A program made the position numbers and the translations under genes. Positions 17,089 to 52,456 of a stretch of 64,000 nt of DNA are shown one piece after another. The notes under the pieces were generated by a model. The model did not search any database and had not been told where the DNA came from. It saw nothing but the letters and a program-made list of their open reading frames with translations. Location of the stretch: contig NC_068979.1 of NCBI RefSeq assembly GCF_016808095.1, forward strand, positions 14,275,001 through 14,339,000, in the 5' to 3' direction. How positions within the stretch are numbered: position 1 is the first letter of the stretch; each line of letters starts with the position of its first letter. This stretch comes from Vigna angularis (lineage: Eukaryota > Streptophyta > Magnoliopsida > Fabales > Fabaceae).

Positions 17089-17114
17089 GATAGCATTCAT
17101 CAGTAAATGCTATC
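17089..17114 (-). ncRNA. Nine-base-pair hairpin after the mini-ORF stop, loop TACTGATG
   Basis: On the minus strand, stem GATAGCATT pairs fully with AATGCTATC around loop TACTGATG. It begins about 12 nt beyond the mini-ORF stop codon. The same element follows ORF2 in the full-length copies. Confidence 0.6.
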
Positions 17115-17719: not shown

Positions 17720-17761
17720 GTAGCGCTTGTTTAACGTCACGAGCCTGACCCAAAATCCACC

Positions 17762-17934
17762 AACACCCATTAGTAGGTATTACAAATTTACCAACACCCA
17801 TCAGAAGGTGTTACAAACTTACCAACACCCATCAGTAGGTGCAAAATTTTCTCACCAACACCTATCAGTAGGTGTTACAAACTTAGTATCCTTCAGTGGA
17901 TACTTAACCACCTAGCATCCTTCAGTAGATGCTA
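17762..17934 (-). ncRNA. Array of TACTGA(A/T)G-loop hairpins (unit A)
   Basis: Six short inverted repeats share one loop (read on plus as CATCAGTA or CTTCAGTA) but differ in the stem: AACACC/GGTGTT, AGTATC/GATACT, TAGCATC/GATGCTA and variants. Two have lost a base pair. The array lies between the two CTGGG/CCCAG hairpins. Confidence 0.6.
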
Positions 17935-18007: not shown

Positions 18008-18960
18008 CACTGGGTTGCCTCCCAGCAAGCGCTCTTTTAACGTCACTAGCTTGACCCAATAAAGCTCATGTTCCATCTTCTTTTTCTTCTTTCTACTGAA
18101 CTTCTTCAGAAATTTGATCAAACTAGGAACCTGTTGCAATGTCTCAATCATAGGAACTTTAATCTCCAATTTCTTGAAGATTTCCATCTAGCGCTCAAAT
18201 TCCTTCTTCCTATGATACTTCTTTGGATGGGGATGGGATTTTTCATATGATTTCTTCTTCTTTCCTCTCATCCTCCTAAATTTTCTCTTTTTCTTTTCTC
18301 TTATTTTTTCTTCCCTTTTCTTTTTCTTTTCAACTTCTTTATTTTCACACAAATCTTCTTTCTCTCTTCTCTCTCTACCACTTCTTTCTCTTTTTCTTCA
18401 TCTTTATTTTTCTCACTCAACTCTTCTTTCTCTTTTCTCTCTATCTTTTCCTCATCTCTTCCTATTTTTTCCTCAACAAAAATCTTGTCACTTTCAATGA
18501 CAATAGCTTGACCTTTCTCCTTAAGGTTAACTTCAGTATTAACCTTAACGTTCAATCTCTGACTAATGTAACGAAGGTGCATCTCCATCCTTTTACATGA
18601 TTCTTCAATGCTTTTCTGAGTAGAGTAAGAATTTTTCAAAAATCGTTGAAGGGTGTCATCCAAACTTTCTGATAGAGAGGGTTGTTGCTGCCATTGTTGT
18701 GGTGGCGTCCTATCAAATTCTTCGGCAGCTTGAGTGTGTTTTTGTGATGAAAATTAGGTATCTGTATGTACTGTTGAACTGCCTCCTCCAACGTTATCCT
18801 TCTTCCCGATAGAGAGGGTTTTTGCTGCCATTATTGTGGTGGTAGACTCTTAAATTGTTTGACAACTTGCCAAAATTGACTGTTATTCATGCTTGAGTGA
18901 GGTTCCCACCAGTGGTTGAAATTACCTTAGTAGAATTGAGTGCCCATATAGTTAAATTCT
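18008..18960 (-). pseudogene. Athila-like gag remnant with lysine-rich tail (unit A)
   Basis: Frames at 18301-18663 and 18002-18187 hold DETLQRF-like sequence (DDTLQRFLKNSYSTQKSIEE), a Glu/Lys-rich repeat region (KEKEVVEREERKKICVKIKK) and MEIFKKLEIKVPMIETLQQV. The latter matches the segment that precedes the protease in Athila-type polyproteins. Indels break the frame near 18190-18300 and beyond 18663. The gag core and protease are missing. The better-preserved copy is at 46907-48454. Confidence 0.75.
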
Positions 18961-20602: not shown

Positions 20603-21882
20603 CAACCCCAAACTTAGAACTTTTCTTGTCCTCAAGCAAACAAGATGTAACTCAATCTTCCACCAATTCATATGATGGTTCACTCATTCAAAAATCATCT
20701 TTTTAAGATAAGTAACAACTTCAATCAAACTTATGACCAAAATTTCAATCAAGATGTGCACATGCTTTAGTGTTCACGAATTCATTTAAGATCCAACAAA
20801 TGCTATTTTTCATGAATGATCAATCAATTAGGCATGGATGTTTATGTGCTCATGGAATACTTCCTCACCAGGTAAAGTGTTTCACTCACACTCAAGTGTA
20901 TAAGAGGTAATCACTCATTCACTCTACTATCACAATGTCACATGAATTAACTTTGCCTTTCATTTAACCACAATCAAAAACATTAACAAGCATGCATCAT
21001 CACAAGGACTTTTCCATGGCTTATAACGTGGCTGGGCTAACAAGAAAATTGGTTTTTCTGGATCACAAAATCTTTGAGTTAAGAGAATCATAACAACACA
21101 ATTATTCTTATTTTTCCCAACTTTCGTTTGCATTGAGCTTTGCCTTTCTTTTCTTTTCTTTCTCTTTTTCTTTTCACATTCTTATTTCTTGGCTTCTTAG
21201 CTCAATGCTTTTCCCTTTTTCTTTTTCATGCTTTCCTAACAACCCCAAACTTGAACATTTATCAATACCACACAAGATTTTCTACTTAACTCAAGGTAAA
21301 GCTTTTCAACAATGGTTTTCAATTCATGTTCAAGGCTAAGGGTTCAAAGGATAGAACACAAAGCGTTCTCTTTTACTGGGCTACTTTATGAATTTGGCCA
21401 ATAACAAGGGTTCCAACAAACGACCTTGATCATATGATGCAAAACAAGCAATTGATTCAATCATAGAAAACCTGGGCAAAATCATTCATGCTCCCAAAGT
21501 AATAACATTCATTTAATAAAAACTCTGGAGCTTAAAACCTCACATATAAGCTCATTCACATTTGACATACACATCTTGCTTAATCTCACAATCACAATCA
21601 TAATATCCTGCATTTGTTCACAAAGCTTGTGAATCACCTGTATAAGCATTTTATGTGCACATCTATCTCAACATCAATCAATCAATAAACATCATCAAGC
21701 ATTACTTATCACATAATCACAGTCAATAGCAAACCATCATAACAAACCAAGTTTCCAATTGAGTACATCAACCTTATTCTAAAACAAAAGTAAATAAGTA
21801 CAGAACAATAAACCAAACAAAAGCATAAGTTCTCCTCTAATTATGATAGCATTCATCAGTAAATGCTGTCTCAATCTCCTCA

Positions 21883-23945: not shown

Positions 23946-24823
23946 ATGCAATTCGAACAAGAATTTAATAGGCACTCAATTCTACTAAGGTAATTTCAAT
24001 CACTAGTGGGATCTCACTCAAGCATGGATAATGATCAATTTTGGCAAGCTGTCGAACAATTTAAGAATCTACCACCACAACAAAGGCAGAAAAAACCCTC
24101 TCTATCGGGAAGAAGGATAATGTTGGAGGAGGCAGTTCAACAGTACATACAGATACCTGATTGTCATCACAAAACCACTCAAGCTGCCGAAGAATTTGAT
24201 AGGCCGCCACCACAACAATGGCAGCAACAACCCTCTCCATCAGTAAATTTGGATGACACCCTTCAACAATTTTTGAAAAATTCCGACTCTACTCAGAGAA
24301 GCATTGAAGAATCATGTAAAAGGATGGAGATGCACCTTCGTTTCATTAGTCAAAAATTGAATGTTAAGGTTAATACTGAAGTTAACCTTAAGGAGGAAGG
24401 TCAAGCCAGTGTCACTGAAAGTGACAAGATTTTTGCTGAGAAAAAAAATAGAGAGAGATGAGGAAAAGCTAGAGAGAGAAGAAAAAGAGGAGTTGAGTGA
24501 GAAAGATAAAGATGATGAAAAAGAAAAAGAAGTGGTTGAGAGAGAAGAGAGGAAGAAAATTTGTGTGAAAATAAAGAAGTTAAGAAGAAAAGGAGAAGGG
24601 AAGAAAAAAATAAGAGAAAAGAAAAAGAGAAAATTTGGGGAGAGGAAGCATAAGAAAAAGAAGATGAGAGGAAAGAAGAAGGAATCATATGAAAAATCCC
24701 ATCCTCATCTAAAGAAGAATCATAGGAAGGAAAAGAAATTTAAGTGCTTTATGGAAATCTTCAAGAAATTGGAGATTAAAGTTCCTATGATTGAGACACT
24801 GCAACAGGTTCCTGGTTTGATCA
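23946..24823 (+). pseudogene. Athila-like gag with lysine-rich tail, frameshifted and interrupted
   Basis: An ATG at 23946 begins MQFEQEFN, as in the unit B gag, then frames shift. 24006-24461 holds MDNDQFWQAVEQF and DDTLQQFLKNSDSTQRSIEE. An A8 run near 24440 shifts the frame into the Glu/Lys-rich part (KEKEVVEREERKKICVKIKK) and then MEIFKKLEIKVPMIETLQQV. The Tekay insertion at 24824 cuts it; 42988-43100 continues with KFLKKFSRKKKK and LKERLLGGNP. There is no protease. The gag core domain is largely deleted. Confidence 0.78.
24819..24823. repeat. Target-site duplication GATCA (right copy 42983-42987)
   Basis: GATCA flanks the Tekay LTRs at both outer edges, and the gag frame continues across it when the element is removed. 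Confidence 0.92.
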
Positions 24824-27178: not shown

Positions 27179-27423
27179 TGATAACAGTTGAAAAACTGTT
27201 ATTTTCATGCTTAAAATTGATACTAAAAGCAACCTTTAGACTTAGAAACTAGCTTGAAATCAATGCTTTTATCTTTATTTTCAGAAATAAGAGAGCTGGA
27301 CAGGTTTATGCTTGATTTGAGTGTTTTTGTGCAGGTTTTAAGGTGAATTTAGTGAAAAGAGTGAAGAAGGAGAGAAGTGACATTAGAAAAGACAAGAAAG
27401 AGTGCAAAACGAGAAGTCGAAGG

Positions 27424-27554
27424 CACCGCTCAGCGGTAATTTACCGCTGAGCGGCACTCAGGAGATTGCGGGAGTCACGCTGAGGGGCAAACTGGCCGCT
27501 GAGGGGAAGAAAAGGGAAGCGCAGTCACCGCTGAGCGGTATTTACCGCTGAGCG
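27424..27554 (+). promoter_or_regulatory. U3 cluster of CCGCT(C/G)AGCGG palindromes
   Basis: ACCGCTCAGCGGT, two ACCGCTGAGCGG forms and three near-copies (CACGCTGAGGGG, GCCGCTGAGGGG, ACCGCTGAGCGC) lie within 131 bp, ending about 80 bp upstream of the TATA box. The same cluster is at 34822-34952 in the 3' LTR. Two further copies stand upstream of ORF2 (31771-31800). Confidence 0.75.
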
Positions 27555-27634
27555 CCAATCTTAATAATGGGCTTGGACTCGTTTTCTGGCACTTTTATGG
27601 GCTTGGGCTTAGATCTTTTGTAATTCTAAAATAG

Positions 27635-27643
27635 TATATAAGG
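27635..27643 (+). promoter_or_regulatory. LTR TATA box TATATAAGG
   Basis: TATATAAGG follows the palindrome cluster; the equivalent in the 3' LTR is at 35033-35041. Transcription of the element is expected to start about 30 bp downstream. Confidence 0.7.
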
Positions 27644-28532
27644 ACTTACACGTCCTAGAATTAGTATCTTTGGCAGAACGTAGGCAAACACTCTCTCTTC
27701 CACCCCTTTGAAGGAGGATCTTGGATGCTCAGGCTACCTCTTCACCTTTTTAGGGTTTATTCTTTCATTCTTTCATTATTGTTCATCTAGGTTCACCATG
27801 AATATGGTGAACTAAACCTTGTATGTTTGTTGGGGAATCAATGTAATCTCTTGAAGCTCTCATATATGGAATTTATGCTTGCATCTTAATTTAAGACTTA
27901 TGCTTTCATTCATCATTAGTTAGGGTTTTTCCTCTTTGCTCAATGCTTGCATTGTTTAACTCATTCTATTGCATGATTATTGGTTTTGTCGATACGGACA
28001 CGTACGGGGAAGTCTAGATCCGGGGAATTTCTCCCAATATTATACTGACAATATTATATTGGTTGTCGTTAAGCTCCTGCACTCATGAACTAATCATTAG
28101 GAATGCTAGGAATTGTATGAACTATTTGATTAGGGAGAAGCCATCTAGAATGGTACTTTAGAGAGTGGCATTAACAATGATGATTTGAATGTTGAATTCC
28201 TAAAATGTATGAGAGTGGATGAGATGAAATTGACCCCCAACAACATATTCATTCATATAATCCATTGAAAGTGTTTATCTTTTGTCTTTGCCATTGATCA
28301 ATTCATGCATACATGTTTAGTTTTCGTCTTGCATAATATAATCCAATTATTTCGTTTGTAAGTCTTAGCTAATCAACAAACCACACAACTAAACTAGGCC
28401 GTGAGTCCTTTGGGAAGAACGATACTTGGTCTTACCAAGTTTATTACTTGAACGATTCGGTCATACTTGCCGATTGTGAAACAAGTTTGTGACATCATAT
28501 TTTGGTGCTTACAAATTTGTCCATCAAGTTTT

Positions 28533-28549
28533 TGGCGCCGTTGCCGGGG
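28533..28549 (+). other. Primer-binding site, tRNA-Asp type, intact
   Basis: TGGCGCCGTTGCCGGGG begins six bases after the 5' LTR and is the exact complement of the 3' end of plant tRNA-Asp including CCA, the primer used by Athila-type elements. Confidence 0.92.
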
Positions 28550-28888
28550 ACTCGTGGTTTAACTGGTTAATTTGTGTGATTATTGATTATCTTTGACTTT
28601 TTGAATTTCTGTTTTTATTTATTTTTTTTTTTTGTTTTTATTTTATTTGATTTTATCTTTTAGGTTAGGTTAGATTTTATTTTATTTTATTTTATCTTTT
28701 TAGGTTAGGTTAGATTTTATTCTATCTTTTAGATTAGATTAGATTTTATATTTTTTTTTTTAGATTAGGTTTTATTTTATTTTATCTATCTGTTTCTATC
28801 TTCTAAATTTTTCTATCTTCTGAATTTATATCTTCTTCTATATCTTTTTGTGCTAACAAATCTTTTCTAGGGTTTTGTTTTCTTGTGT
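28550..28888 (+). other. Leader with TTTTA-rich simple repeat
   Basis: This is a 339-bp AT-rich leader with repeated TTTTATTTTA and AGGTTAGGTTAGATT units (about 28610-28790). No gene was seen. A TATGCAG just before 28892 could be a splice acceptor, but a donor was not identified. Confidence 0.7.
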
Positions 28889-31303
28889 ATGCAGGAAGCA
28901 ATTCGGACTAGAAGCAAGAAAACAACAGAACCACTCTTTGAAGGGCTAGACGAGAGTAGAAGGAGGAGAAGAATCAGAACGTCCAGAGAACTTTTCCCTT
29001 CTCCAGAAACTCTCCTCCAAACATCACCACAAGGTTCTGTTCACAGCACAAGAAGTATGGAGAATAACAATGCTAGAAGAACTCTTGCAGATTACACCAA
29101 TCTTGCTGGACCTCAACACTTTAACAGCATAGCTAGACCTAGAGTCAATGCAGCCAACATGGAGGTCAAGCCAGCATTAATTCAACTGGTGAAGAGTAAT
29201 CAATTTAATGGGTTATCTCATGAAAGCCCATATGAGCACCTTACAACTTTCAATGAGATCTGCAACACGGTCAAGATTAATGGGGTGCCAGACGAAGCTA
29301 TCAAACTTAGCTTGTTTCCCTTCTCATTGGGGGGCAATGCTAAGCTTTGGTTAAACTCTTTTCCAGAAGAAAGTTTCACAGAGTGGGAAGCAGTGGTCAC
29401 AAAATTTCTAAACAAGTACTTTCCACAATCAAAGGTGACCAAAGGAAAGCAAGAGATTTCGTCATTCAAGCAGGGCATGGAGGAGTCACTTGGACATGCA
29501 TGGGACAGGTATAAAAGCTTGTTACGCAAAACTCCCATGCATGGTTTCGAAGATCAAGAAGTAGTCCTAACTTTCCTTGGAGGGCTTGGTTCACAAACCA
29601 AGATGATGCTGGATGCCTCAGCTGGAGGCAATATCAAATGGAAGACTCCAGAGGAAGCAACTGACATTATTGAAAATATGGCTACAAGTGACAATGAGCT
29701 ACACAGTGAGAGAGGAGCCCCTACGCAACAAAGAGGGGTTCTGCAATTACAAACCCATGATGCCTTGCTAGCTCAGAACAAAATTTTAACTCAACAGCTG
29801 GAGACTCTGACTAAAACTCTTGCACAATTACCTAAAGAGTTGAAATCTGCTGCACAGGTACAAACCCAGTTATGCGAACTATGTGGAGGTGACCATATCA
29901 ATGGTCAATGTGCGTTGCCAGTGGAAGCCGTGGAGGATGTTAATTTCATGGCTAATCAGTTTCCATACCGCCAAGGGAATTACAATCAAGGGTGGAAACC
30001 ACATCCAAGCATTGGCCAAGGACAAACTGGGCAGTCGAATCAATATAACAAGCAGCAGCAGCAACCAACCTTGTGGCAACAATTATCTGCGCTTAATGAA
30101 AGGCAAACAAGGTTGGAAGAAACTCTTAATCAATTTATACAGAAAACTGAATCTTCTCAAAAGAGCACTGAAGCTGCGATAAAGAATTGGGAGATTCAAA
30201 TGGGTCAGATTATCAAGCGATTGGAAGAAAGACCCGACAGAAATTTTGGGGCTAATACTGAAGTTAACCCCAGAGAAGAGTGCAAAGTGGTTGAGAGTGT
30301 TGATGATGAGAAAGTTGAGTTAGATACAGAACAAAGAAAAGACGCAGAAGAGAGCAAAAGCACTTTTCCTTTCCATCAAGACTTCACAGAATTATTCAAA
30401 ATGGTGGATAATGATGCACCTTGGGAACAGATTTTACAACAGATTACGGTTTACACTAAATCTAATGAAGAAATCTCTACAAAGAAAAGACGTAGAGATG
30501 ATGAGGCAAAGGAGTGTATAACTGTTAAGCAAGAGTCATTTCCCCCTAAAGCACCAGATCCAGGTAGTTTTTCTATCCCTTGCACTATAGGGAAGAAACA
30601 GGTGAAGAAAGCTCTCCTTGATTTAGGTTCAAGTGTTAACTTGATACCTTATTCGTTACTGGAGCAAATTGGCAATGTTAAAGTGAAACCTGTAAAGGTT
30701 AATCTAGTAATGGCCGATGGATCTTCAAAGGAGCCATGTGGGATTGCTGAGGATATTATAGTTTGTGTTGGCAAACTCCAGTTTTTAGCAGACTTTGTAG
30801 TGATGAAGATGGAGACCGAGAAGATACCTATCATACTTGGAAGACCGTTTATGAAAACGGCCAGGGCCATCATTGATGTACATGAAGGTATAGTGGTGCT
30901 CCAAGACAGAGAGGAGAGAGTGGTGGTGGATGTCTTCAAAGATGAAACACAAGCAAAGGAGGAAGAGGCTAGTTATAAAGCTGCATTTCAAGATGCACCC
31001 ATGACTAGAAGTCAAGATGAAAATCTTGAGGTATCAGGTAACCATTGTTTGTTGTTTCAGGTACCCAAGGATGAAGAAGAAACTGGAAAAGGAGAAGAGA
31101 TTCCTAGGGACTGGAAGAAGAGAGAACTCCAACTTGGCACACCTGTGAGACTCAAGAACAAGTTGTGGGTTGTGAAGGGCTTCAAAGAAAAGGAGATGAT
31201 AGAGATAGAGTCTCCACATTCTAGGAGAACCAAAACAGTCCAAAGGAAGCAGTTGAGAAGTTGGTGGAAAGACTACATCAACTATACAGAAGATGGAACA
31301 TGA
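28889..31303 (+). CDS. Athila-type gag-protease polyprotein, 804 residues
   Basis: The gag packages element RNA into particles in the cytoplasm and the protease processes it. An Arg-rich head (about 1-50) precedes the gag core (about 90-240; MEVKPALIQLVKSNQFNGLS, LSLFPFSLGGNAKLWLNSFP, TKFLNKYFPQSK). A zinc knuckle CELCGGDHINGQC (CX2CX3HX4C) lies near residue 330, then a Gln-rich linker. The aspartic protease begins near 575 with ALLDLGSSVNLIPYSL; DLG in place of DSG is normal in Athila-type proteases. ILGRPF is near 650. The start is the ATG at 28889; the frame is open two codons further upstream. The ORF is intact but ends where RT would follow in an autonomous element. The C-terminal KRKQLRSWWKDYINY is not recognised. 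Confidence 0.93.
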   Translation: MQEAIRTRSKKTTEPLFEGLDESRRRRRIRTSRELFPSPETLLQTSPQGSVHSTRSMENNNARRTLADYTNLAGPQHFNSIARPRVNAANMEVKPALIQLVKSNQFNGLSHESPYEHLTTFNEICNTVKINGVPDEAIKLSLFPFSLGGNAKLWLNSFPEESFTEWEAVVTKFLNKYFPQSKVTKGKQEISSFKQGMEESLGHAWDRYKSLLRKTPMHGFEDQEVVLTFLGGLGSQTKMMLDASAGGNIKWKTPEEATDIIENMATSDNELHSERGAPTQQRGVLQLQTHDALLAQNKILTQQLETLTKTLAQLPKELKSAAQVQTQLCELCGGDHINGQCALPVEAVEDVNFMANQFPYRQGNYNQGWKPHPSIGQGQTGQSNQYNKQQQQPTLWQQLSALNERQTRLEETLNQFIQKTESSQKSTEAAIKNWEIQMGQIIKRLEERPDRNFGANTEVNPREECKVVESVDDEKVELDTEQRKDAEESKSTFPFHQDFTELFKMVDNDAPWEQILQQITVYTKSNEEISTKKRRRDDEAKECITVKQESFPPKAPDPGSFSIPCTIGKKQVKKALLDLGSSVNLIPYSLLEQIGNVKVKPVKVNLVMADGSSKEPCGIAEDIIVCVGKLQFLADFVVMKMETEKIPIILGRPFMKTARAIIDVHEGIVVLQDREERVVVDVFKDETQAKEEEASYKAAFQDAPMTRSQDENLEVSGNHCLLFQVPKDEEETGKGEEIPRDWKKRELQLGTPVRLKNKLWVVKGFKEKEMIEIESPHSRRTKTVQRKQLRSWWKDYINYTEDGT

Positions 31304-31343
31304 ACTTTATTGGGTCAAGCTAATGACGTTAAAAGAGCGCTTG

Positions 31344-31359
31344 CTGGGAGGCAACCCAG
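31344..31359 (+). ncRNA. CTGGG/CCCAG hairpin, first copy
   Basis: Stem CTGGG and CCCAG enclose AGGCAA, within the longer conserved stretch TGACGTTAAAAGAGCGCTTG. It lies 41 nt after the gag-protease stop. The sister copy at 31613-31628 has the same hairpin with a slightly different lead (AAACAAGCGCTA). Confidence 0.6.
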
Positions 31360-31430
31360 TTGATTGAAAAACTTTTAATTTTGATTTGGTTTAATTTGTG
31401 AACATTATTCTGTAAATATTTTGTTGAATT

Positions 31431-31570
31431 TAGCATCTACTGAAGGATGCTAGGTGGTTAAGTATCTACTGAAGGATACAATGTTGTAACACCTACTGAT
31501 GGGTGTTGGTAAGAAATTTTGCACCTACTGATGGGTGCTGGTAAGTTTGAAACACCTACTGATGGGTGTT
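31431..31570 (+). ncRNA. Array of five TACTGA(A/T)G-loop hairpins with compensated stems
   Basis: The stems are TAGCATC/GATGCTA (31431-31452), GTATC/GATAC (31462-31479), AACACC/GGTGTT (31488-31507), GCACC/GGTGC (31521-31538) and AACACC/GGTGTT (31551-31570). Every loop is TACTGAAG or TACTGATG. Both sides of each stem change together, so pairing is kept while sequence is not. The units are spaced irregularly and separated by unpaired spacers such as GGTAAGTTTG. The array lies between the two CTGGG/CCCAG hairpins. Confidence 0.7.
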
Positions 31571-31612
31571 GGTGGATTTTAGGTCAGGCTCGTGACGTTA
31601 AACAAGCGCTAC

Positions 31613-31628
31613 CTGGGAGGCAACCCAG
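31613..31628 (+). ncRNA. CTGGG/CCCAG hairpin, second copy
   Basis: It has the same stem and AGGCAA loop as 31344-31359, closing the hairpin block on its 3' side. Both are followed by TTGATTGA. Confidence 0.6.
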
Positions 31629-31770
31629 TTGATTGATTGTTTTTGTTTATTTATTTTTAGTTAGGATTTGCATAAGCATTTTTAACATTGAATTGCAGGG
31701 AACCTATGAGGGACATGTAGGGAAGGCACGTAGGTCAAGAAAAGAAGGAGAAGGGCACATCACGAAAGTG

Positions 31771-31862
31771 CCGCTGAGCGGCAATTACCGCTGAGCGGTA
31801 TTATCGCAGATGGGCTTAAGTTCCCCTTAGCGGAACCCGAGCCCATTGGGGTATTTTTAAAC
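31771..31862 (+). promoter_or_regulatory. Promoter-like module upstream of ORF2
   Basis: Two palindromes, GCCGCTGAGCGGC (31771-31783) and ACCGCTGAGCGGT (31788-31800), are followed by GAGCCCATTGGGG and a TATA-like TATTTTTAAA (31853-31862). This repeats the order of the LTR U3 (palindromes, then a GGGCTTGGGCTT-type box, then TATA). ORF2 begins 215 bp downstream. The equivalent TATTTTTATA is at 43605-43614, and on the minus strand near 17458-17467. Confidence 0.55.
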
Positions 31863-32076
31863 CCTAAGCTGCGCGTTTTTACATTCTTTCAAGCCCTTCT
31901 CTGCACAAACACTTCCACATATCTTCTCTTAGGTTTTGCACATCTTTTTACTCTTCCCTCTTTAGAAAATCTCTCTTTCACTCACTTTTTCACTAGTGTG
32001 CCATCAAAGTTTGGGGTTGGAAGAGAGCATTCTAGTTTGGAAGCATTCTCATATCATCTAGCATCTCCACCCAAGA

Positions 32077-33300
32077 ATGGCATCCTCTTCAGGAAAGAGA
32101 TTGAAAACCATGGCAACCAAGAGAAAGGAAAAGGAACCAGAGCAGCCCCATAATGGCAGGTTCCTTTCTAGGAAACATGAGAAGCACTTTAGGGTGGTTC
32201 AGGACAGGAGACTTCTAATGGAGAGAAAAGTTGGAATGATACCTAACTTTGCTCCTCAATTTGGAGAGCAAGTGTTAGGGAATGATTGGGGAAAGCTAGC
32301 CACTTATCCAGCACCTGCCAACATAGCTGTGGTCAAGGAATTCTACACCAATGCAAAGAAGATTGGTGGTCATCCAGCTGAGAATTATTTGGGCTATGTC
32401 AGAGGCCATGCTATCAGGTTTGATCCTGATTCTATCAACAACTTCCTGGATACTGTGTGGGCTGGTGAGCAATGTCAGTTTGCTCTTAGCATGGAGGAAG
32501 GTGCTGACTTTGAGGATGTTGAGAGAGTACTGTGTATACCTGGAGGACACTTCCAAAGGAATAGATCTGGCGCAGTGGTTAATATTAGGAGGACGGATTT
32601 GACTCCTCTTGCAAAATATTGGATGGCATTTTCTCATGCCAACATTCAGCCATGTTCACATGTGTCAGATATTACTCTCAGCAGGGCACTATTCATCTAC
32701 TGTGCTATCAGAAACTTGAATGTTAATATTGGGCAGGTAATAGCTGATGAAATCAGTGTATGTGCTAACACCTCAAACAACAAAGCACCACTGGGACATC
32801 CTTCTTTGATCACTCACCTTTGCAAACAAGCTGAGGTGGATACTTCTGTTCCACCATTTGAGAGGCCAAGAAAAGCTATAGATGAGGCCTATTACAGACA
32901 GTACTGTGGAGGTGAGGAGGCAGCTCAGCCAGTTCCACCACGCCAGGCTCGTAGAGGGCCAGCACAGAGCCGGACATCTGCGGATACACATGAAGCAGAA
33001 CCATTTCAGATGAGAGACATGTATATGTCTCTTATAGGTGCTCAGTTGCAGTCCATCCATAGAGGGCAGGTGGCCACGGCCGAGATGATAGTGGGGATGT
33101 ATGATACCCCTCCAGCACACAGGTGGACTATGGATGAATTCCATAATGTGGTAGCTTGGCCAGAAGAACCATTGCATGAAGGAGCTGAAGCAGCTGAAGC
33201 TTCAGCTAGAGATATGGAAGAAGATGAAGATGAGGAGGAGGATGCATTTGATGAAGATGAAGATGAGGAGGAAGAGGAAGATACAGAGAGCTCAGACTGA
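32077..33300 (+). CDS. ORF2, plant-transposon-associated protein, 407 residues, function unknown
   Basis: The protein starts with a Lys-rich head (KRLKTMATKRKEKEPEQ), has a globular middle (LLMERKVGMIPNFAPQFGEQ, YVRGHAIRFDPDSINNFLDT, LTPLAKYWMAFSHANIQPCS, LSRALFIYCAIRNLNVNIGQ) and ends in a strongly acidic tail of Glu/Asp. This is the type annotated as 'putative plant transposon protein' (PF20167-like), found in ORFs beside plant retroelement gag or pol. I see no signal peptide, membrane segment or catalytic motif, so an env role is not supported. It is uninterrupted and preceded by its own promoter-like module. Related copies are 51362-52456 (truncated) and the three mini-ORFs. Confidence 0.8.
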   Translation: MASSSGKRLKTMATKRKEKEPEQPHNGRFLSRKHEKHFRVVQDRRLLMERKVGMIPNFAPQFGEQVLGNDWGKLATYPAPANIAVVKEFYTNAKKIGGHPAENYLGYVRGHAIRFDPDSINNFLDTVWAGEQCQFALSMEEGADFEDVERVLCIPGGHFQRNRSGAVVNIRRTDLTPLAKYWMAFSHANIQPCSHVSDITLSRALFIYCAIRNLNVNIGQVIADEISVCANTSNNKAPLGHPSLITHLCKQAEVDTSVPPFERPRKAIDEAYYRQYCGGEEAAQPVPPRQARRGPAQSRTSADTHEAEPFQMRDMYMSLIGAQLQSIHRGQVATAEMIVGMYDTPPAHRWTMDEFHNVVAWPEEPLHEGAEAAEASARDMEEDEDEEEDAFDEDEDEEEEEDTESSD

Positions 33301-33311
33301 TGAGGAGCTGA

Positions 33312-33337
33312 GATAGCATTTACTGATGAATGCTATC
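33312..33337 (+). ncRNA. Nine-base-pair TACTGATG hairpin just after the ORF2 stop
   Basis: Stem GATAGCATT pairs with AATGCTATC around TACTGATG, starting 11 nt after the stop codon. In the W-box element (43958-43983) the stem is GATAACATT/AATGTTATC: a G-C pair has become A-T on both sides. The hairpin is also conserved at 17089 and 51325. Confidence 0.7.
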
Positions 33338-34576
33338 AAATGATTATGCTTTTGTGGTTTAAGTTTTCTGAACTCATTTGTTTTTGTTTTTAGATTAGGG
33401 TTTGATGTACTCTTTTGAAAACCTGGTTTGTGTGATGGTTTGCTATTAACTGTGATTGTTTGATAAGTAATGCTTGATGATGCTTATTGATTGATTGATG
33501 TTGAAATGATGTGCACATTAAATGCTTATACAGGTGATTCACAAGCTTTGTGAACAAATGCATGAAATTATGATTGTGGTTGTGAGATTAAGCAGGATGT
33601 GTATGTCAAATGTGAATGAGCTTATATGTGAGGTTTTGAGCTCCAGAGTTTTGGTATGATTGAATGCTATTACTTTGAAAGCATGAATGATTTTGCCCAG
33701 GTTTTCCATGATTGAATCAATTGCTTGTTTTCCATCATGTGATCAAGGCCGTTTTGTTGAAACCCTTTTTATTGGCCAAATTCATAAAGTTAGCCCACTA
33801 AAAGAGAACACGTTGTGTTCTATCCTTTGAACCCTTAGCCTTGAACATACACTTGAAACCTTTGATTGAAAATCTTTACCTTGAGTTAAGTAGAAGATCT
33901 TATGTGGTATTGTTAAATGTTCAAGTTTGGGGTTATTGGGAAAACATAAAAAGCATTGAGCTAAGAGCTAAAAAGTAAGAATATGCAAAGAAAAAGAAAA
34001 GAAAAGAAAAAGAAGTAAAGCTCAATGCAGTTGCAATTGTAAAAGGCAAGTTGGGAATGAATAAGATGATTGTGTTGTTATGATTCTCTTGACTCAAGGA
34101 TTTTGCGATCCAGAAAAACCAATTTTCTTGTTAGCCCAGCCACATTATAAGCCAGTGAAAAGTCCTTTTGATGATGCATGCTTGTGATTGTTTTGATTGT
34201 GGTAAAATGAAAGGCAAAGTTGATTCATGTGACATTGTGATAGTGGAGTGAATGAGCGAAACACTACACCTCTTATACACTTGTGTGTTTAGTGAAACAC
34301 TTTATCTAAGTGAGGAAATATTCCATAAGCACATGAACATCCATGCTTAATTGATTGATCATTCATGAAAAATAGCATTTGTTGGAATTTAAATGACTTT
34401 GTGAACACTAAAGCATGTGCACATCTTGATTGAACTCTTGGTCATAAGTTTGAGTGAAGTTGTTACTTATCTTGAAAAAGAGGATTTTTGAATGAGTGAA
34501 CTATCATATGAATTGGTTGGAGATTGAGTTACATCTTGTTTGCTTGAGGACAAGCAAAGTTCTAAGTTTGGGGTTG
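33338..34576 (+). other. Conserved 1.2-kb 3' non-coding region with further hairpins
   Basis: No ORF of note. The region is conserved in all Athila-like copies here. Perfect short stems include TTCACAA/TTGTGAA (about 33538-33554), AGAACAC/GTGTTCT around three bases (about 33805-33821) and TTTGCTTG/CAAGCAAA with loop AGGA (34539-34558), the last only 18 bp from the 3' LTR. The sequence just before the LTR, AAGTTTGGGGTTG, would be the plus-strand priming region, though it is not a clean purine tract. Confidence 0.7.
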
Positions 34577-35924
34577 TGATAACAGTTGAAAAACTGTTAT
34601 TTTCATGCTTAAAATTGATACTAAAAGCAACCTTTAGACTTAGAAACTAGCTTGAAATCAATGCTTTTATCTTTATTTTCAGAAATAAGAGAGCTGGACA
34701 GGTTTATGCTTGATTTGAGTGTTTTTGTGCAGGTTTTAAGGTGAATTTAGTGAAAAGAGTGAAGAAGGAGAGAAGTGACATTAGAAAAGACAAGAAAGAG
34801 TGCAAAACGAGAAGTCGAAGGCACCGCTCAGCGGTAATTTACCGCTGAGCGGTACTCAGGAGATTGCGGGAGTCACGCTGAGGGGCAAACTGGCCGCTGA
34901 GGGGAAGAAAAGGGAAGCGCAGTCACCGCTGAGCGGTATTTACCGCTGAGCGCCAATCTTAATAATGGGCTTGGACTCGTTTTCTGGCACTTTTATGGGC
35001 TTGGGCTTAGATCTTTTGTAATTCTAAAATAGTATATAAGGACTTACACGTCCTAGAATTAGTATCTTTGGCAGAACGTAGGCAAACACTCTCTCTTCCA
35101 CCCCTTTGAAGGAGGATCTTGGATGCTCAGGCTACCTCTTCACCTTTTTAGGGTTTATTCTTTCATTCTTTCATTATTGTTCATCTAGGTTCACCATGAA
35201 TATGGTGAACTAAACCTTGTATGTTTGTTGGGGAATCAATGTAATCTCTTGAAGCTCTCATATATGGAATTTATGCTTGCATCTTAATTTAAGACTTATG
35301 CTTTCATTCATCATTAGTTAGGGTTTTTCCTCTTTGCTCAATGCTTGCATTGTTTAACTCATTCTATTGCATGATTATTGGTTTTGTCGATACGGACACG
35401 TACGGGGAAGTCTAGATCCGGGGAATTTCTCCCAATATTATACTGACAATATTATATTGGTTGTCGTTAAGCTCCTGCACTCATGAACTAATCATTAGGA
35501 ATGCTAGGAATTGTATGAACTATTTGATTAGGGAGAAGCCATCTAGAATGGTACTTTAGAGAGTGGCATTAACAATGATGATTTGAATGTTGAATTCCTA
35601 AAATGTATGAGAGTGGATGAGATGAAATTGACCCCCAACAACATATTCATTCATATAATCCATTGAAAGTGTTTATCTTTTGTCTTTGCCATTGATCAAT
35701 TCATGCATACATGTTTAGTTTTCGTCTTGCATAATATAATCCAATTATTTCGTTTGTAAGTCTTAGCTAATCAACAAACCACACAACTAAACTAGGCCGT
35801 GAGTCCTTTGGGAAGAACGATACTTGGTCTTACCAAGTTTATTACTTGAACGATTCGGTCATACTTGCCGATTGTGAAACAAGTTTGTGACATCATATTT
35901 TGGTGCTTACAAATTTGTCCATCA
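34577..35924 (+). repeat. 3' LTR of the young Athila-like element
   Basis: It is 1348 bp, identical by eye to the 5' LTR except C/T at 34853. The palindrome cluster is at 34822-34952 and TATATAAGG at 35033-35041. Confidence 0.95.
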
Positions 35925-43167: not shown

Positions 43168-43336
43168 CAGCATCTACTGAAGGATGCTAGGTGGTTAAGT
43201 ATCTACTGAAGGATACTAAGTTTGTAACACCTACTGATGGGTGTTAGTGAGAAAATTTTGCACCTACTGATGGGTGTTGGTAAGTCTGTAACACCTACTG
43301 ATGGGTGTTGGTAAGTTTGAAACACCTACTGATGGG
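43168..43336 (+). ncRNA. TACTGA(A/T)G-loop hairpin array in the W-box element
   Basis: Six units are present: AGCATC/GATGCT, AGTATC/GATACT, AACACC/GGTGTT, CACC/GGTG with a possible G-U pair, AACACC/GGTGTT, and a decayed AACACC/GGTCTT. The extra unit relative to 31431-31570 shows copy-number change. Confidence 0.65.
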
Positions 43337-43539
43337 TCTTGGTGGATTTTGGGTCAGGCTCGTGACGTTAAACAAGCGCTACCTGGGAGGCAACCCAGTT
43401 GATTGATTGTTTTTGTTTGTTTTATTTTAGTTAGGGTTTGCATAAGTATTTTAAACATTGAATTGTAGGGAACCAGTGAGGGGCATGTCTAGGAGGCACG
43501 TAGGTTAAGAAAAGAAGGAGAAGAGCACATCACGAAAGT

Positions 43540-43957: not shown

Positions 43958-43983
43958 GATAACATTTACGGATGAATGTTATC
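43958..43983 (+). ncRNA. Nine-base-pair hairpin after the mini-ORF, loop TACGGATG
   Basis: Stem GATAACATT/AATGTTATC shows a compensated change against GATAGCATT/AATGCTATC elsewhere. The loop differs at one base. Confidence 0.65.
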
Positions 43984-46496: not shown

Positions 46497-46689
46497 CTCT
46501 TCTCCTTCTTTTCTTAACCTACGTGCCTCCTAAACATGCCCCTCACTGGTTCCCTGCAATTCAATTCTCAGGTTACTTATGCACAACCCTATTATACTAC
46601 TACAATGAAACAAACAGAAACAATCAATCAACTGGGTTGCCTCCTAGGTAGCGCTTGTTTAACATCACGAGCCTGACCCAAAATCCACC

Positions 46690-46833
46690 AACACCTATCA
46701 GTAGGTGTTACAATACTTACCAACACCCATCAGTAGGTGCAAAATTTTCTCACCAACACCCATCAGTAGGTCTTACACACTTAGCATCCTTTAGTAGATG
46801 CTATATCCAACTAGCATCCTTCAGTAGATGCTA
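46690..46833 (-). ncRNA. Hairpin array in unit B
   Basis: On the plus strand the loops read TATCAGTA, CATCAGTA, CTTTAGTA and CTTCAGTA. The stems AACACC/GGTGTT and TAGCATC/GATGCTA (twice) are intact; one unit is imperfect. Confidence 0.6.
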
Positions 46834-46906: not shown

Positions 46907-48454
46907 TTAAATCACTGGGTTGCCTCCCAACAAGCGCTCTTTTAACGTCATTAGCTTGACCCAGTAAAGCTCAAGTTCCTTCTTCTTTTTCTTCTTCCTA
47001 CTAAACTTCTTCAGAAATTTGATCAAACCAGGAACCTGTTGCAGTGTCTCAATCATAGGAACTTTAATCTCCAATTTCTTGAAGATTTCCATAAAGCACT
47101 TAAATTTCTTTTCCTTCCTATGATTCTTCTTTAGATGAGGATGGGATTTTTCATATGATTTCTTCTTCTTTCCTCTCATCTTCTTTTTCTTCCTTTTTCT
47201 TTCCCTAAATTTTCTCTTTTTCTTTTCTTTTATTTTTTTCTTCCCTTTTCTTTTTCTTTTCAACTTCTTTATTTTCACACAAATTTTCTTTCTCTCTTCT
47301 CTCTCAACCACTTCTTTTTCTTTTTCTTCATCTTTATTTTTCTCACTCAACTCTTCTTTTTCTTTTCTCTCTATCTTTTCCTCATCTCCCCCTATTTTTT
47401 TATCATCAAGAATCTTTTCACTTTGAGTGACAATGGCTTGCCCTTCTTCCTTAAGGTTAACTTCAGTATTAACCTCCTCATTCAATCTCTGACTAATGTA
47501 ATGAAGGTGCATCTTCATCCTTTTACATGATTCTTCAATGCTTTTCTGAGTAGCGTCAGAATTTTTCAAAAATCGCTGAAGGGTTTCATCCAAACTATCC
47601 AAACTTCCTGATAGAACAAGTTGTTGTTGTTGCTTGCTAAATTGCCCTGATTGTCCAGCTTGCCCACTTTGTTCTTGACCAATACTTGGGTGTGGTTTCC
47701 ACCCTTCATTGAAGTTTCCCTGACAGTATGGAAATTGATTGGCCGTGAAGTTAACATCCTCTAAAGCTTCCACTGGAAAGGCGCATTGACCATTGATATG
47801 GTCACCCCCACATAATTCACACATCAATTCACACATCTGTGGTTGAACCTGTGCAACAGTCTATAACTCTTTTGGCAATTGTTCAAGTATCTTTGTGAGA
47901 TTCTCCAATTGTTGAGTTATTAACTTGTTCTGAGCTATCAAGGCATCATTGGATTGCAACTGTAGAACTCCTTTTTGTTGAATAGGAGCTCCTCTTTCAC
48001 TGTTCCACTTATTGTCATTCGTAGTCATGTTTTCAATTATTTCTGTGGCTTCCTCTGGAGTTTTCCATTTGATATTGCCTCCAGCTGAGGCGTCAAGCAT
48101 CATCATGGTTTGTGAACCAAGACCTCCAAGGAAGATTAGGACTACTTCTCCTTCGTTAAATCCATGCGTGGGAGGCTTTCTTAATAGACTTTTGTACCTG
48201 TCCCATGCGTGACCTAGTGTTTCCTCCATGCCTTGTGCAAATGAAGAGATCTCTTGCTTCCCTTTGTTGATTTTAAAGCTTTGTTGTTGCCATTGTTGTT
48301 GTGGTTGGTTCTCAAATTGTCCAGCAGCTTGCCAAAATTGGCTTTGATCCATGCTTGAGTGAGGTTCCCACCAGTGGTTGAGATTACTTTGATAGAATTG
48401 AGTGTCCATATAGTTAAATTCTTGATCAAATTGCATTCTGCAGACATTAGGCAC
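46907..48454 (-). pseudogene. Athila-like gag with zinc knuckle and lysine-rich tail, no protease (unit B)
   Basis: This is one frame broken by a single TAG near 47860. The N-terminal part (47861-48454) holds a Gln-rich head, a shortened gag core (QEISSFAQGMEETLGHAWDR, FLGGLGSQTMMMLDASAGGN) and the QLENLTKILEQLPKEL helix. The C-terminal part (46907-47836) holds the knuckle CELCGGDHINGQC, a Gln-rich stretch, then about 110 residues very rich in Lys and Glu, then MEIFKKLEIKVPMIETLQQV and LKERLLGGNP. The IFKKLEI segment is what precedes protease in Athila polyproteins; here the frame ends instead. It is the best-preserved copy of this gag type in the window. Confidence 0.8.
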
Positions 48455-50092: not shown

Positions 50093-52456
50093 CAACCCTA
50101 AACTTAGAACTTTGCTTGTCCTCAAGCAAACAAGATGTAACTCAATCTTCCACCAATGCATATGATGGTTCACTCATTCAAAAATCTTCTTTTTAAGATA
50201 AGTAACAACTTCAATCAAACTTATGACCAAAATTTCAATCAAGATGTGCACATGCTTTAGTGTTCACGAATTCATTTAATATCCAACAAATGCTATTTTT
50301 CATGAATGATCAATCAATTAGGCATGGATGTTTATGTGCTCATGGAATACTTCCTCACCAGGTAAAGTGTTTCACTCACACTCAAGTGTATAAGAGGTAA
50401 TCACTCATTCACTCTACTATCACAATGTCACATGAATTAACTTTGCCTTTCATTTAACCACAATCAAAAACATTAACAAGCATGCATCATCACAAGGACT
50501 TTTCCATGGCTTATAACGTGGCTGGGCTAACAAGAAAATTGGTTTTTCTGGATCACAAAATCCTTGAGTTAAGAGAATCATAACAACACAATTATTCTTA
50601 TTTTTCCCAACTTTCGTTTGCATTGAGCTTTGCCTTTCTTTTCTTTTCTTTCTCTTTTTCTTTTAACATTCTTATTTCTTGGCTTCTTAGCTCAATGCTT
50701 TTCCCTTTTTCTTTTTCATGCTTTCCTAACAATCCCAAACTTGAACATTTATCAATACCACACAAGATTTTCTACTTAACTCAAGGTAAAGCTTTTCAAG
50801 AATGGTTTTCAATTCATGTTCAAGGCTAAGGGTTCAAAGGATAGAACACAAAGCGTTCTCTTTTACTGGGCTACTTTATGAATTTGGCCAATAACAAGGG
50901 TTCCAACAAACGGCCTTGATCATATGATGCAAAACAAGCAATTGATTCAATCATAGAAAACCTGGGCAAAATCATTCATGTTTCCAAAGCAATAGCATTC
51001 AATTAATAAAAACTCTGGAGCTCAAAACCTCACATATAAGCTCATTCACATTTGACATACACATCCTGCTTAATCTCACAATCACAATCCATATATTCTG
51101 CATTTGTTCACAAAGCTTATGAATCACCTGTATAAGCATTTTATGTGCACATCTATCTCAACATCAATCAATCAATAATCATCATCAAACATTACTTATC
51201 ACACAATCACAGTCAATAGCAAACCATCATAACAAACCAGGTTTCCAATAGAGTACATCAAACCTAATCTAAAACAAAAGTAAATAAGTTCAGAACACTT
51301 AAACCAACAAAAGCATAAGTTCATGATAGCATTCATCAGTAAATGCTATCTTAGCTCCTCATCAATCTAAGCTGTCCTCTGTATCTTCCTCTTCTTCCTC
51401 ATCTTCATCATCTTCAAACGCATCATCATCATCAGCTTCATCTTCTTCCATCTCCCTAACTGAAGCTTCAGCTGCTTCAGCTCCTCCTCCTTGCACCGGC
51501 TCCTCTGGCCAAGCTACCACATTATGGAATTCCTCCATAGTCCACCTGTGAGCGGGAGGTGTATCATACATCCCCACAATCATCTCAGCATTAGCCACCT
51601 GCCCTCTATGAATGGACTGTAACTGAGCACCTATAAGAGACATGTACATGTCCCTCATCTGGAATGGTTCTGCTTCATGTGTATCAGCAGATGTCTGGCT
51701 CTGTGCTTGCCCTCTTTCTCTGCGAGCACGGCGTGGTGGAACTGGCTGAGCTGCCTCCTCACCTCCATAGTACTGTCTGTAATATGCCTCATCAATAGCT
51801 TTTCTTGGCCTTTCAAATGGTGGAGCAGAAGTGTCCACCCCAGCTATCTTACAAAGGTGAGTGATTAAGGAGGGATGTCCGAGGGGTGCTTTGTTATTTG
51901 AGGTATTAGCACATACACTAATTTCATCAGCTATCACCTGCCCAATGTTAACATTCAAGTTCCTGATAGCACAGTAGATGAAGAGTGCCCGGCTGAGAGT
52001 AATATCTGACACATGTGAACATGGTTGAATGTTGGCATGAGAAAATGCCATCCAATACTTTGCAAGAGGAGTCAGATCAACCCTCCTAATGTTTACCACT
52101 GAGCCAGATCTATTCCTTTGGAAGTGTCCTCCAAGTATACATAGTACTCTTTCTACATCCTCAAAATCAGCCCCTTCCTCCAGGCAAAGAGCAAACTGGC
52201 ACTGCTCACCAGCCCAGACAGTATCCAGGAAGTTATTAATAGAATCAGGATCATACCTGATAGCATGGCCTCTGACATAGCCCAGATAATTTTCAGCTGG
52301 ATAATCACCAATTTTCTTTGCATTGGTGTAGAATTCTTTTACCACAGCTATGTTGGCAGGTGCAGGATATGTGGCTAGCTTTCCCCAGTCATTCCCTAAC
52401 AATTGCTCTCTAAATTGAGGAGCAAAGTTAGGTATCATTCCAACTTTTCTTTCCAT
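50093..52456 (-). mobile_element. Athila-like internal unit C, 3' part only
   Basis: It contains the 3' non-coding region (50093-51324), a perfect TACTGATG hairpin (51325-51350) and a 5'-truncated ORF2. It ends abruptly at 52456, where Tat/Ogre-like sequence begins. Confidence 0.85.
51362..52456 (-). pseudogene. ORF2 copy lacking its first 43 codons, 364 residues open
   Basis: It matches the 407-residue ORF2 at 32077-33300 from MERKVGMIPNFAPQF to the acidic tail, with conserved YVRGHAIR, LTPLAKYWMAFSHANIQPCS and MYDTPPAHRWTMEEFHNVVA. The frame is intact although the head is lost: homology stops exactly at the internal ATG (52456). Substitutions between the copies are scattered. Long survival of the frame in a truncated copy suggests either youth or past constraint. 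Function is unknown. Confidence 0.8.

Follow-up and report, generated by a model that had tools for sequence, protein, structure and literature searches.

Why does a plant retrotransposon carry, before and after one of its genes, a series of hairpins that share one loop but differ in stem? The question is raised by a 64,000-nt stretch of the Vigna angularis genome (NC_068979.1, positions 14,275,001 to 14,339,000, forward strand; hereafter the window, whose own numbering is used below), in which a young long terminal repeat (LTR) element at 27179..35924 presents six such hairpins. The reading that we tentatively favour, at somewhat under an even chance, is that they are repeated cis-acting hairpins of an Athila-type lineage whose loop is read by a protein, likeliest one of the element's own, and likeliest for packaging. 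The element, its open reading frames (ORFs) and its hairpins are listed here (R1 being a covariance model of the hairpins).

27179..35924, + strand: young, non-autonomous, hairpin-bearing LTR element, with LTRs at 27179-28526 and 34577-35924
28883..31303, + strand: ORF1, gag and aspartic protease, 806 aa (Pfam)
31431..31452, + strand: hairpin H1, TAGCATC-TACTGAAG-GATGCTA (sequence, R1)
31462..31479, + strand: hairpin H2, GTATC-TACTGAAG-GATAC (sequence, R1)
31488..31507, + strand: hairpin H3, AACACC-TACTGATG-GGTGTT (sequence, R1)
31521..31538, + strand: hairpin H4, GCACC-TACTGATG-GGTGC (sequence, R1)
31551..31570, + strand: hairpin H5, AACACC-TACTGATG-GGTGTT (sequence, R1)
32077..33300, + strand: ORF2, 407 aa, PF20167 'putative plant transposon protein' (Pfam, 5.4e-66)
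33312..33337, + strand: hairpin H7, GATAGCATT-TACTGATG-AATGCTATC (sequence)

All six hairpins stand at the places and with the stems given by the original prediction, five between the gag-protease ORF and ORF2 and the sixth, H7, from 11 nt past the ORF2 stop, a spacing shared by all 7 of the 37 loci in which the script picked the ORF2 frame. The stems vary as had been claimed, except that those at 31494 and 31557 are alike over six pairs, so that five are distinct. Every one of the 30 cells in these stems is paired, and full pairing arises in 2 of the 720 permutations of the 3' arms, namely the actual arrangement and the one in which H3 and H5, being identical, change places. Statistically, TACTGAWG has 25 occurrences in the window where 4.4 are expected (attained by 0 of 100 dinucleotide shuffles), and since five pairs around an 8-nt loop are found at only about 1% of window positions (670 of 63,970), six hairpins in one element are not a matter of chance. 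Among the 8-mers of both window strands, TACTGATG, TACTGAAG and their complements lead with 3 distinct 5-bp stems each, the runners-up having 2. Across the 448-Mb genome the 11-base motif form CTACTGATGGG has 2835 occurrences against 114 for a reversed control. Exact loops in 40 ORF2 neighbourhoods (224 kb) number 130 in the sense and 12 in the antisense orientation, the first five pairs being complete in 96 of the 130. The hairpins are real, and far above chance expectation.

The 40 neighbourhoods were hand-chosen from 150 scored of 3032 candidate PF20167 places, so the sample leans toward intact copies. Aligned regions were those with two flanking blocks (see below) 150-400 nt apart, which gave 28 intergenic sequences, from 24 of the 40 loci and 4 of 6 window pieces; the other 18 of the 46, which lack such a pair, were left out, some of them still bearing hairpins (L014, L016, L022, L024 and L036). 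Intergenic hairpins were picked by their loop (at most one mismatch) with pairing not required, and the H7 set, 37 of 46, by 5'-arm pattern and loop with the 3' arm ignored, a pattern that missed H7-like hairpins in L012 and L040. At least four of the five loop-proximal pairs form in 108 of the 109 intergenic hairpins (all five in 96) and in 36 of the 37 H7 copies (all five in 24), at 2 to 6 loops per intergenic region. The first stem is GCATC/GATGC, or ACATC/GATGT in L017, L018, L023 and L044; the second is GTATC/GATAC; and from the third onward the stems are ACACC/GGTGT, GCACC/GGTGC or, in L013 and L025, ATACC/GGTAT. Of all 109 loops, 35 have the form TACTGAAG. The claim of a conserved loop on variable but paired stems is borne out by this set. 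Mean column conservation is 93-96% in H1, H2, H3 and H5 (H4, a gap in most regions, was unscored), 79% in the preceding 68-nt linker, 59% in the H4-H5 linker (five alignable columns) and 83-95% in four other short linkers.

Among 72 distinct 22-mers (360 cells), 93.6% of cells are paired against 82.1% when shuffled, 74 cells are changed on both sides against 29.2, and the covariation score is 0.557 against 0.324, each value being attained by 0 of 500 shuffles; two other measures, the number of both-side-changed pairs (4, shuffled 3.6) and that of further pair types (8, shuffled 8.0), are not raised above the shuffles. Covariation, the original prediction's own test in a larger alignment, is thus present on three of five measures (by shuffling, not R-scape). 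Sliding the partner by -3 to +3 lowers pairing to 28-56% (maximum 56.3%), and pair 3 is nearly constant and therefore uninformative. Because shuffles ignore relatedness, and kinship alone can exceed them, the permutation of arms and a tree were added. Over the 37 loci, H7 pair 1 is C-G in 5, U.G in 8, U-A in 23, A.G in 1 and C.A in 0, and on an ORF2 tree of 34 loci U-A fills a single clade surrounded by U.G and C-G lineages, with four changes, of which one leads to A.G and none leads to C.A. Of greater weight than the example at 43958 (see below) are the different stems within one element and the lineage-level changes at pairs 1, 2, 4 and 5. R1 scores 27 window sites at 26 bits or more and all else at 15.3 bits or less; as R1 was built partly from those sites, this shows only that the model detects no others. 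Rfam at its gathering threshold has 0 matches in the window.

Beyond the young element, the window holds three more clusters and four more post-ORF2 hairpins, in which all the predicted recurrences (17089, 17762-17934, 43168-43336, 43958 and 46690-46833) were found, as well as hairpins of the H0 type, a candidate that in the young element lies inside ORF1.

43168..43341, + strand: hairpin cluster of a second + element, six hairpins, the last stem broken (sequence, R1)
43958..43983, + strand: H7 of the second + element, stem GATAACATT/AATGTTATC, loop TACGGATG (sequence, R1)
46689..46833, - strand: hairpin cluster of a minus-strand element, five hairpins, one stem broken (sequence, R1)
17761..17934, - strand: hairpin cluster of a minus-strand element, six hairpins (sequence, R1)
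17089..17114, - strand: H7 (sequence, R1)
21847..21868, - strand: H7 of another minus-strand copy (sequence, R1)
51327..51348, - strand: H7 of another minus-strand copy, ORF2 at 51362-52456 (sequence, Pfam, R1)
30248..30271, + strand: H0 candidate of the young element, GGGGCTAA-TACTGAAG-TTAACCCC, inside ORF1, coding NTEVN, one C.A mismatch (sequence)
24364..24391, + strand: H0-type hairpin, TTAAGGTTAA-TACTGAAG-TTAACCTTAA (sequence)
18521..18548, - strand: H0-type hairpin, 10 bp (sequence)
47453..47476, - strand: H0-type hairpin, 8 bp (sequence)

At 43958 both sides of the stem changed as had been described, but the loop is TACGGATG and not the fixed one, so the loop is not strictly fixed, and this example (a single copy, two transitions, a changed loop) is weak evidence. 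Full pairing, likewise predicted, applies to most stems but not to those at 43327 (+) and 46768 (-), which have only 3 bp. The H0 type lies outside the R1 matches. The Gag-coding NTEVN segment folds into a hairpin of 8-10 bp that has this loop too, and between lineages the stem varies, in part by paired changes; with loop and arms lying inside this conserved coding motif, H0 was rejected as a full member and kept as a candidate only, and its loop is not independent evidence because the Gag coding sequence also fixes it.

Hairpin arrays occur in another, third family, reached through an alternative form of the flanking block's second hairpin, TTGGGAGGCAACCCAA (243 genome occurrences against 1 for the control), of which 12 loci, L051-L062, were examined. 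Three hold arrays in the sense orientation that begin about 45-70 nt past the block, with R1 matches counted at E up to 1.

L055, 1568-1927: hairpin array, 12 R1 matches
L057, 1590-1996: hairpin array, 13 R1 matches
L060, 1590-1918: hairpin array, 10 R1 matches

Their stems include GCATC/GATGC, ACATC/GATGT and a 9-bp ATCAGCATC/GATGCTGAT. At least four pairs form in 22 of the 23 hairpins with an exact loop (all five in 10) and in 33 of 41 when one loop mismatch is allowed (all five in 15), the larger set taking in TGCTGATG out of register in at least four cases; pair 5 is often A.C. Since stops occur in all three frames, the arrays are non-coding in these copies. L051-L054, L058 and L062 each have one TACTGATG on a CCCC/GGGG stem of 4 bp only, 841-1416 nt beyond the start of the block's second hairpin, and these are weak because R1 leaves them unscored; in five of these six loci the 3 kb examined contain no sense ORF longer than 120 aa. 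No hairpin was seen within 1.5 kb in L056, L059 and L061, and the frames that precede the block in L051-L062 showed no pol on inspection by eye.

What kind of element is it, then, that keeps these hairpins? The two LTRs of the young element are 99.926% identical across 1348 nt. ORF1 matches Retrotrans_gag (3e-16) and Asp_protease_2 (8.2e-5, barely below its cut-off), and otherwise nothing at E 0.001; because neither ORF1 nor ORF2 has a Pfam match to reverse transcriptase (RT), RNase H or integrase, the element is non-autonomous, and with no RT by which to classify it we presume an Athila lineage, in line with the original prediction's label. The fold model of ORF2, from 40 sequences, is poor (mean pLDDT 42.6). 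In all, 376 relatives of ORF2 were found. Elements of the gag-protease plus ORF2 type without RT and integrase are abundant, and the tail of ORF1 resembles, by eye only, a remnant of an integrase C-terminus. In 16 of the 40 loci, all within the 28 aligned regions, ORF1 similarity continues through the protease to the C-terminal part directly before the intergenic region, which leaves no room for RT or integrase; all 16 keep both blocks and at least three loops, those of L021 and L030 being changed.

Mechanistically, the fixed loop with matched stem changes suggests recognition by some protein, for which the unit would be an 8-nt loop, UACUGA(A/U)G, on a stem of at least 4 bp and free sequence. 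The reader would likeliest be the Gag or nucleocapsid protein of a helper, or a product of ORF1 or ORF2; since signal and element move together, it would presumably be encoded by the element. Its likeliest purpose would be to label full-length unspliced RNA for packaging, which we favour because, in the young element, five of the six hairpins precede the acceptor-like sequences that stand ahead of ORF2 (a U-rich tract followed by TTTAG, and TTGCAG, seen by eye and uncounted in the 28-region alignment), and because elements without RT and integrase keep the hairpins. It is unlikely, in our estimate, that the loop amounts to a trans-mobilisation code, a dispersed packaging label by which gag-only and even coding-poor relatives would be packaged by a helper's Gag and parasites would compete on hairpin copy number, from 1 to about 13. 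To our knowledge, little is known of the means by which a plant LTR retrotransposon selects its own RNA, or by which a non-autonomous one obtains the proteins of another; a short motif whose loop is kept would be a handle on RNA choice, as it can be synthesised, probed and used as bait, and it is searchable by covariance model in other legumes.

Several points weigh against packaging through a protein-read loop. Retroviral packaging signals usually lie in the 5' leader, and in the young element neither the LTRs nor the 5' leader contain a hairpin that R1 recognises. H7, past ORF2, would be on spliced RNA as well. Loop constancy is partly a matter of choice, since at most one loop mismatch was allowed at selection, and H7 pair 5 is A.C in 10 of 37 loci with ten changes on the tree, so the constraint may bear on four pairs of the stem, with a tolerant fifth. 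Single-cell ratios of G.U to A.C are 18:8 in the intergenic regions, 10:10 in H7 and 3:8 in the third family; with no clear G.U excess, change within copies looks like neutral decay, and such a ratio is expected under neutral post-insertion decay and equally without RNA selection on single copies. Structurally, 66 of the 109 hairpins appear in the minimum-energy structure of their whole region, and stability is only mildly above that of 60 shuffles per region (z of +0.5 in 1 of the 28 regions, -0.1 to -2.8 in 25, and -3.9 and -5.3 in 2). All of the sequence is from one genome, and no autonomous helper element was found; pieces beside three block loci (L063-L066) had 0 sense ORFs above 170 aa, with ORFs not put through Pfam.

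The main rival to packaging, itself somewhat unlikely, is that the hairpins regulate ORF2, through splicing or nuclear export of unspliced RNA or through translation, with a loop-bound protein as the switch. The cluster does lie directly upstream of ORF2 and ahead of the acceptor-like sequences, one hairpin begins 11 nt past the ORF2 stop, and CTGAT inside the TACTGATG loop fits what we take to be the plant branch-site consensus; however, TACTGAAG is a poorer branch site, and about 90 nt separate the last hairpin from the nearest such acceptor, the first acceptor-like AG. Splicing that yields an extra ORF is reported for barley Bagy2 in an excerpt of PMC7264820, which counts for this rival, whereas the arrays of L055, L057 and L060 come after the acceptor-like TTGTAG/TTGCAG and have 0 ORF2 matches within 1.5 kb beyond the block. 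Support for an anticodon-loop or a branch-site reading of the loop was not found.

Improbable is the proposal that the hairpins are accessory to the two hairpin-spacer-hairpin blocks, GGTCA-N6-TGACGTTAAA-...-GGGAGGCAACCC, overlooked in the original prediction, that bracket the cluster and are also both present in 24 of the loci L009-L048.

31313..31359, + strand: flanking block copy 1, first hairpin (hp1) GTCA-N6-TGAC, GTTAAA spacer, second hairpin (hp2) CTGGG-AGGCAA-CCCAG
31582..31628, + strand: flanking block copy 2, hp1 GTCA-GGCTCG-TGAC, GTTAAAC spacer, hp2

Here the blocks would stall a 5'-3' exonuclease or scanning ribosomes, and the resulting protected RNA, beginning ahead of ORF2, would be stabilised or marked by the hairpins. 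Column conservation, higher than in the hairpins, is 95% for copy 1 and 97% for copy 2, and the layout recalls coremin motifs, which in the excerpted text of PMC10520033 have a 4-bp hp1 with loop YGAD or YGNNAD, a spacer GUUAAACUAC and hp2, stall Xrn1 and scanning ribosomes in vitro, and need the C and U of the spacer CUAC. The likeness, which concerns these blocks and not the fixed-loop hairpins, lies in the 4-bp hp1, GACGUUAAA (the GUUAAA spacer start) and hp2, which is CTGGG-AGGCAA-CCCAG in most and, by eye, CTGGA-AGGCAT-TCCAG in L020 and L021; NGNNAD is matched by AGCUAA and AGCUAG, the loops usual in copy 1. The full loop consensus, however, is fitted by 1 of 28 copies of block 1 (L018, UGCUAA, matching YGNNAD) and 0 of 28 of block 2; the first loop base is Y in only 1 of 56 blocks, being A in 27 of the 28 first copies and G in all 28 second copies, loop position 5 of copy 2 is C or U, and the spacers, typically GUUAAAAGAG or GUUAAACAAG, lack CUAC. 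The blocks were not filed as coremin because the first loop base and the spacer CUAC fail; their action may still be coremin-like. On pairing hp1 of copy 1 is uninformative, because it is identical in 28 of 28 regions, themselves found by that sequence with at most 3 mismatches. Just before block copy 1 stands TTCAGTAG, at about 43005 (+) and 18095 (-) and in L013, L017, L023, L025, L026 and L043, that is, in 8 of 28 regions and not in the young element; it complements CTACTGAA of H1/H2, probably by chance.

Could the hairpins instead lack any RNA function, as inverted repeats made or perfected by template switching, tandem-duplicated and kept only by descent? We consider this quite improbable. 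Quasi-palindrome correction can yield paired changes without selection, hairpin number per region varies from 2 to 6, and G.U within copies is not clearly more frequent than A.C; H3-H6 and the L055, L057 and L060 arrays look like products of duplication, which the original prediction had named, with decayed pairing, as a possible undoing, but pairing is mostly kept. Against descent alone, the loop is kept beside drifting linkers, the stems differ in sequence and not in pairing, the post-ORF2 and intergenic hairpins lie in unrelated flanks, and H7 pair 1 takes the forms C-G, U.G and U-A but never C.A. A cis-regulatory palindrome acting as DNA, of the kind proposed for Sireviruses, whose repeated palindromes stand ahead of an extra ORF (excerpt of PMC2829016), is highly improbable, since Sirevirus arms are much alike within an element, whereas here the arms vary around a kept asymmetric centre, which does not suit a dyad-symmetric site.

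Outside this genome, relatives of ORF1 and ORF2 were sought in a viral contig collection and none was found, nor was the flanking-block pattern; CACCTACTGATGGGTG in two IMG/VR contigs was taken as chance, these having 1 and 3 TACTGAWG and no GGGAGGCAACCC. A satellite-like tandem repeat occupies 1-2142 of the window, with a period of about 175 nt and 83-88% identity (from self-match offsets).

How, finally, does the system compare with known ones? Like retroviral Psi, the hairpins would mark unspliced RNA, but they are repeated, fixed-loop and set between ORFs, not in the 5' leader. Multiple stem-loop packaging signals exist in satellite virus and parechovirus. RNA virus packaging signals resemble the present case in comprising several hairpins, which in some systems carry a common short loop motif on otherwise unrelated stems, and differ in that here the carrier is a retrotransposon and the hairpins are clustered between ORFs; alphavirus capsid sites are multiple stem-loop packaging signals of this kind (excerpt of PMC8402798). 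Athila/Calypso elements, with an ORF between pol and the 3' LTR, share gag and an extra ORF with the young element, which differs in lacking RT and integrase (PMC1142308, in part); the words hairpin, stem-loop and inverted repeat are absent from the main text of that paper, and no title or abstract opening returned by full-text searches describes the loop, the block or Athila hairpin arrays, Wright and Voytas 2002 and Vicient 2001 lying outside this search. The nearest described system that was found is the Sirevirus repeated motif (Bousios 2010, PMC2829016, in excerpt), likewise a set of inverted repeats present in several copies in LTR retrotransposons of plants; 77 of its 79 linker copies precede the ENV-like gene. 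Twelve of 13 Sirevirus motifs have a CGG-CCG core in that excerpt, against 0 of our 72 distinct 22-mers. The Sirevirus motif further differs in belonging to Ty1/copia elements, in copies that are mostly more than 85% identical per element, arms included, in occurring also in the LTRs, and in being read as DNA regulatory sites (PMC2829016).

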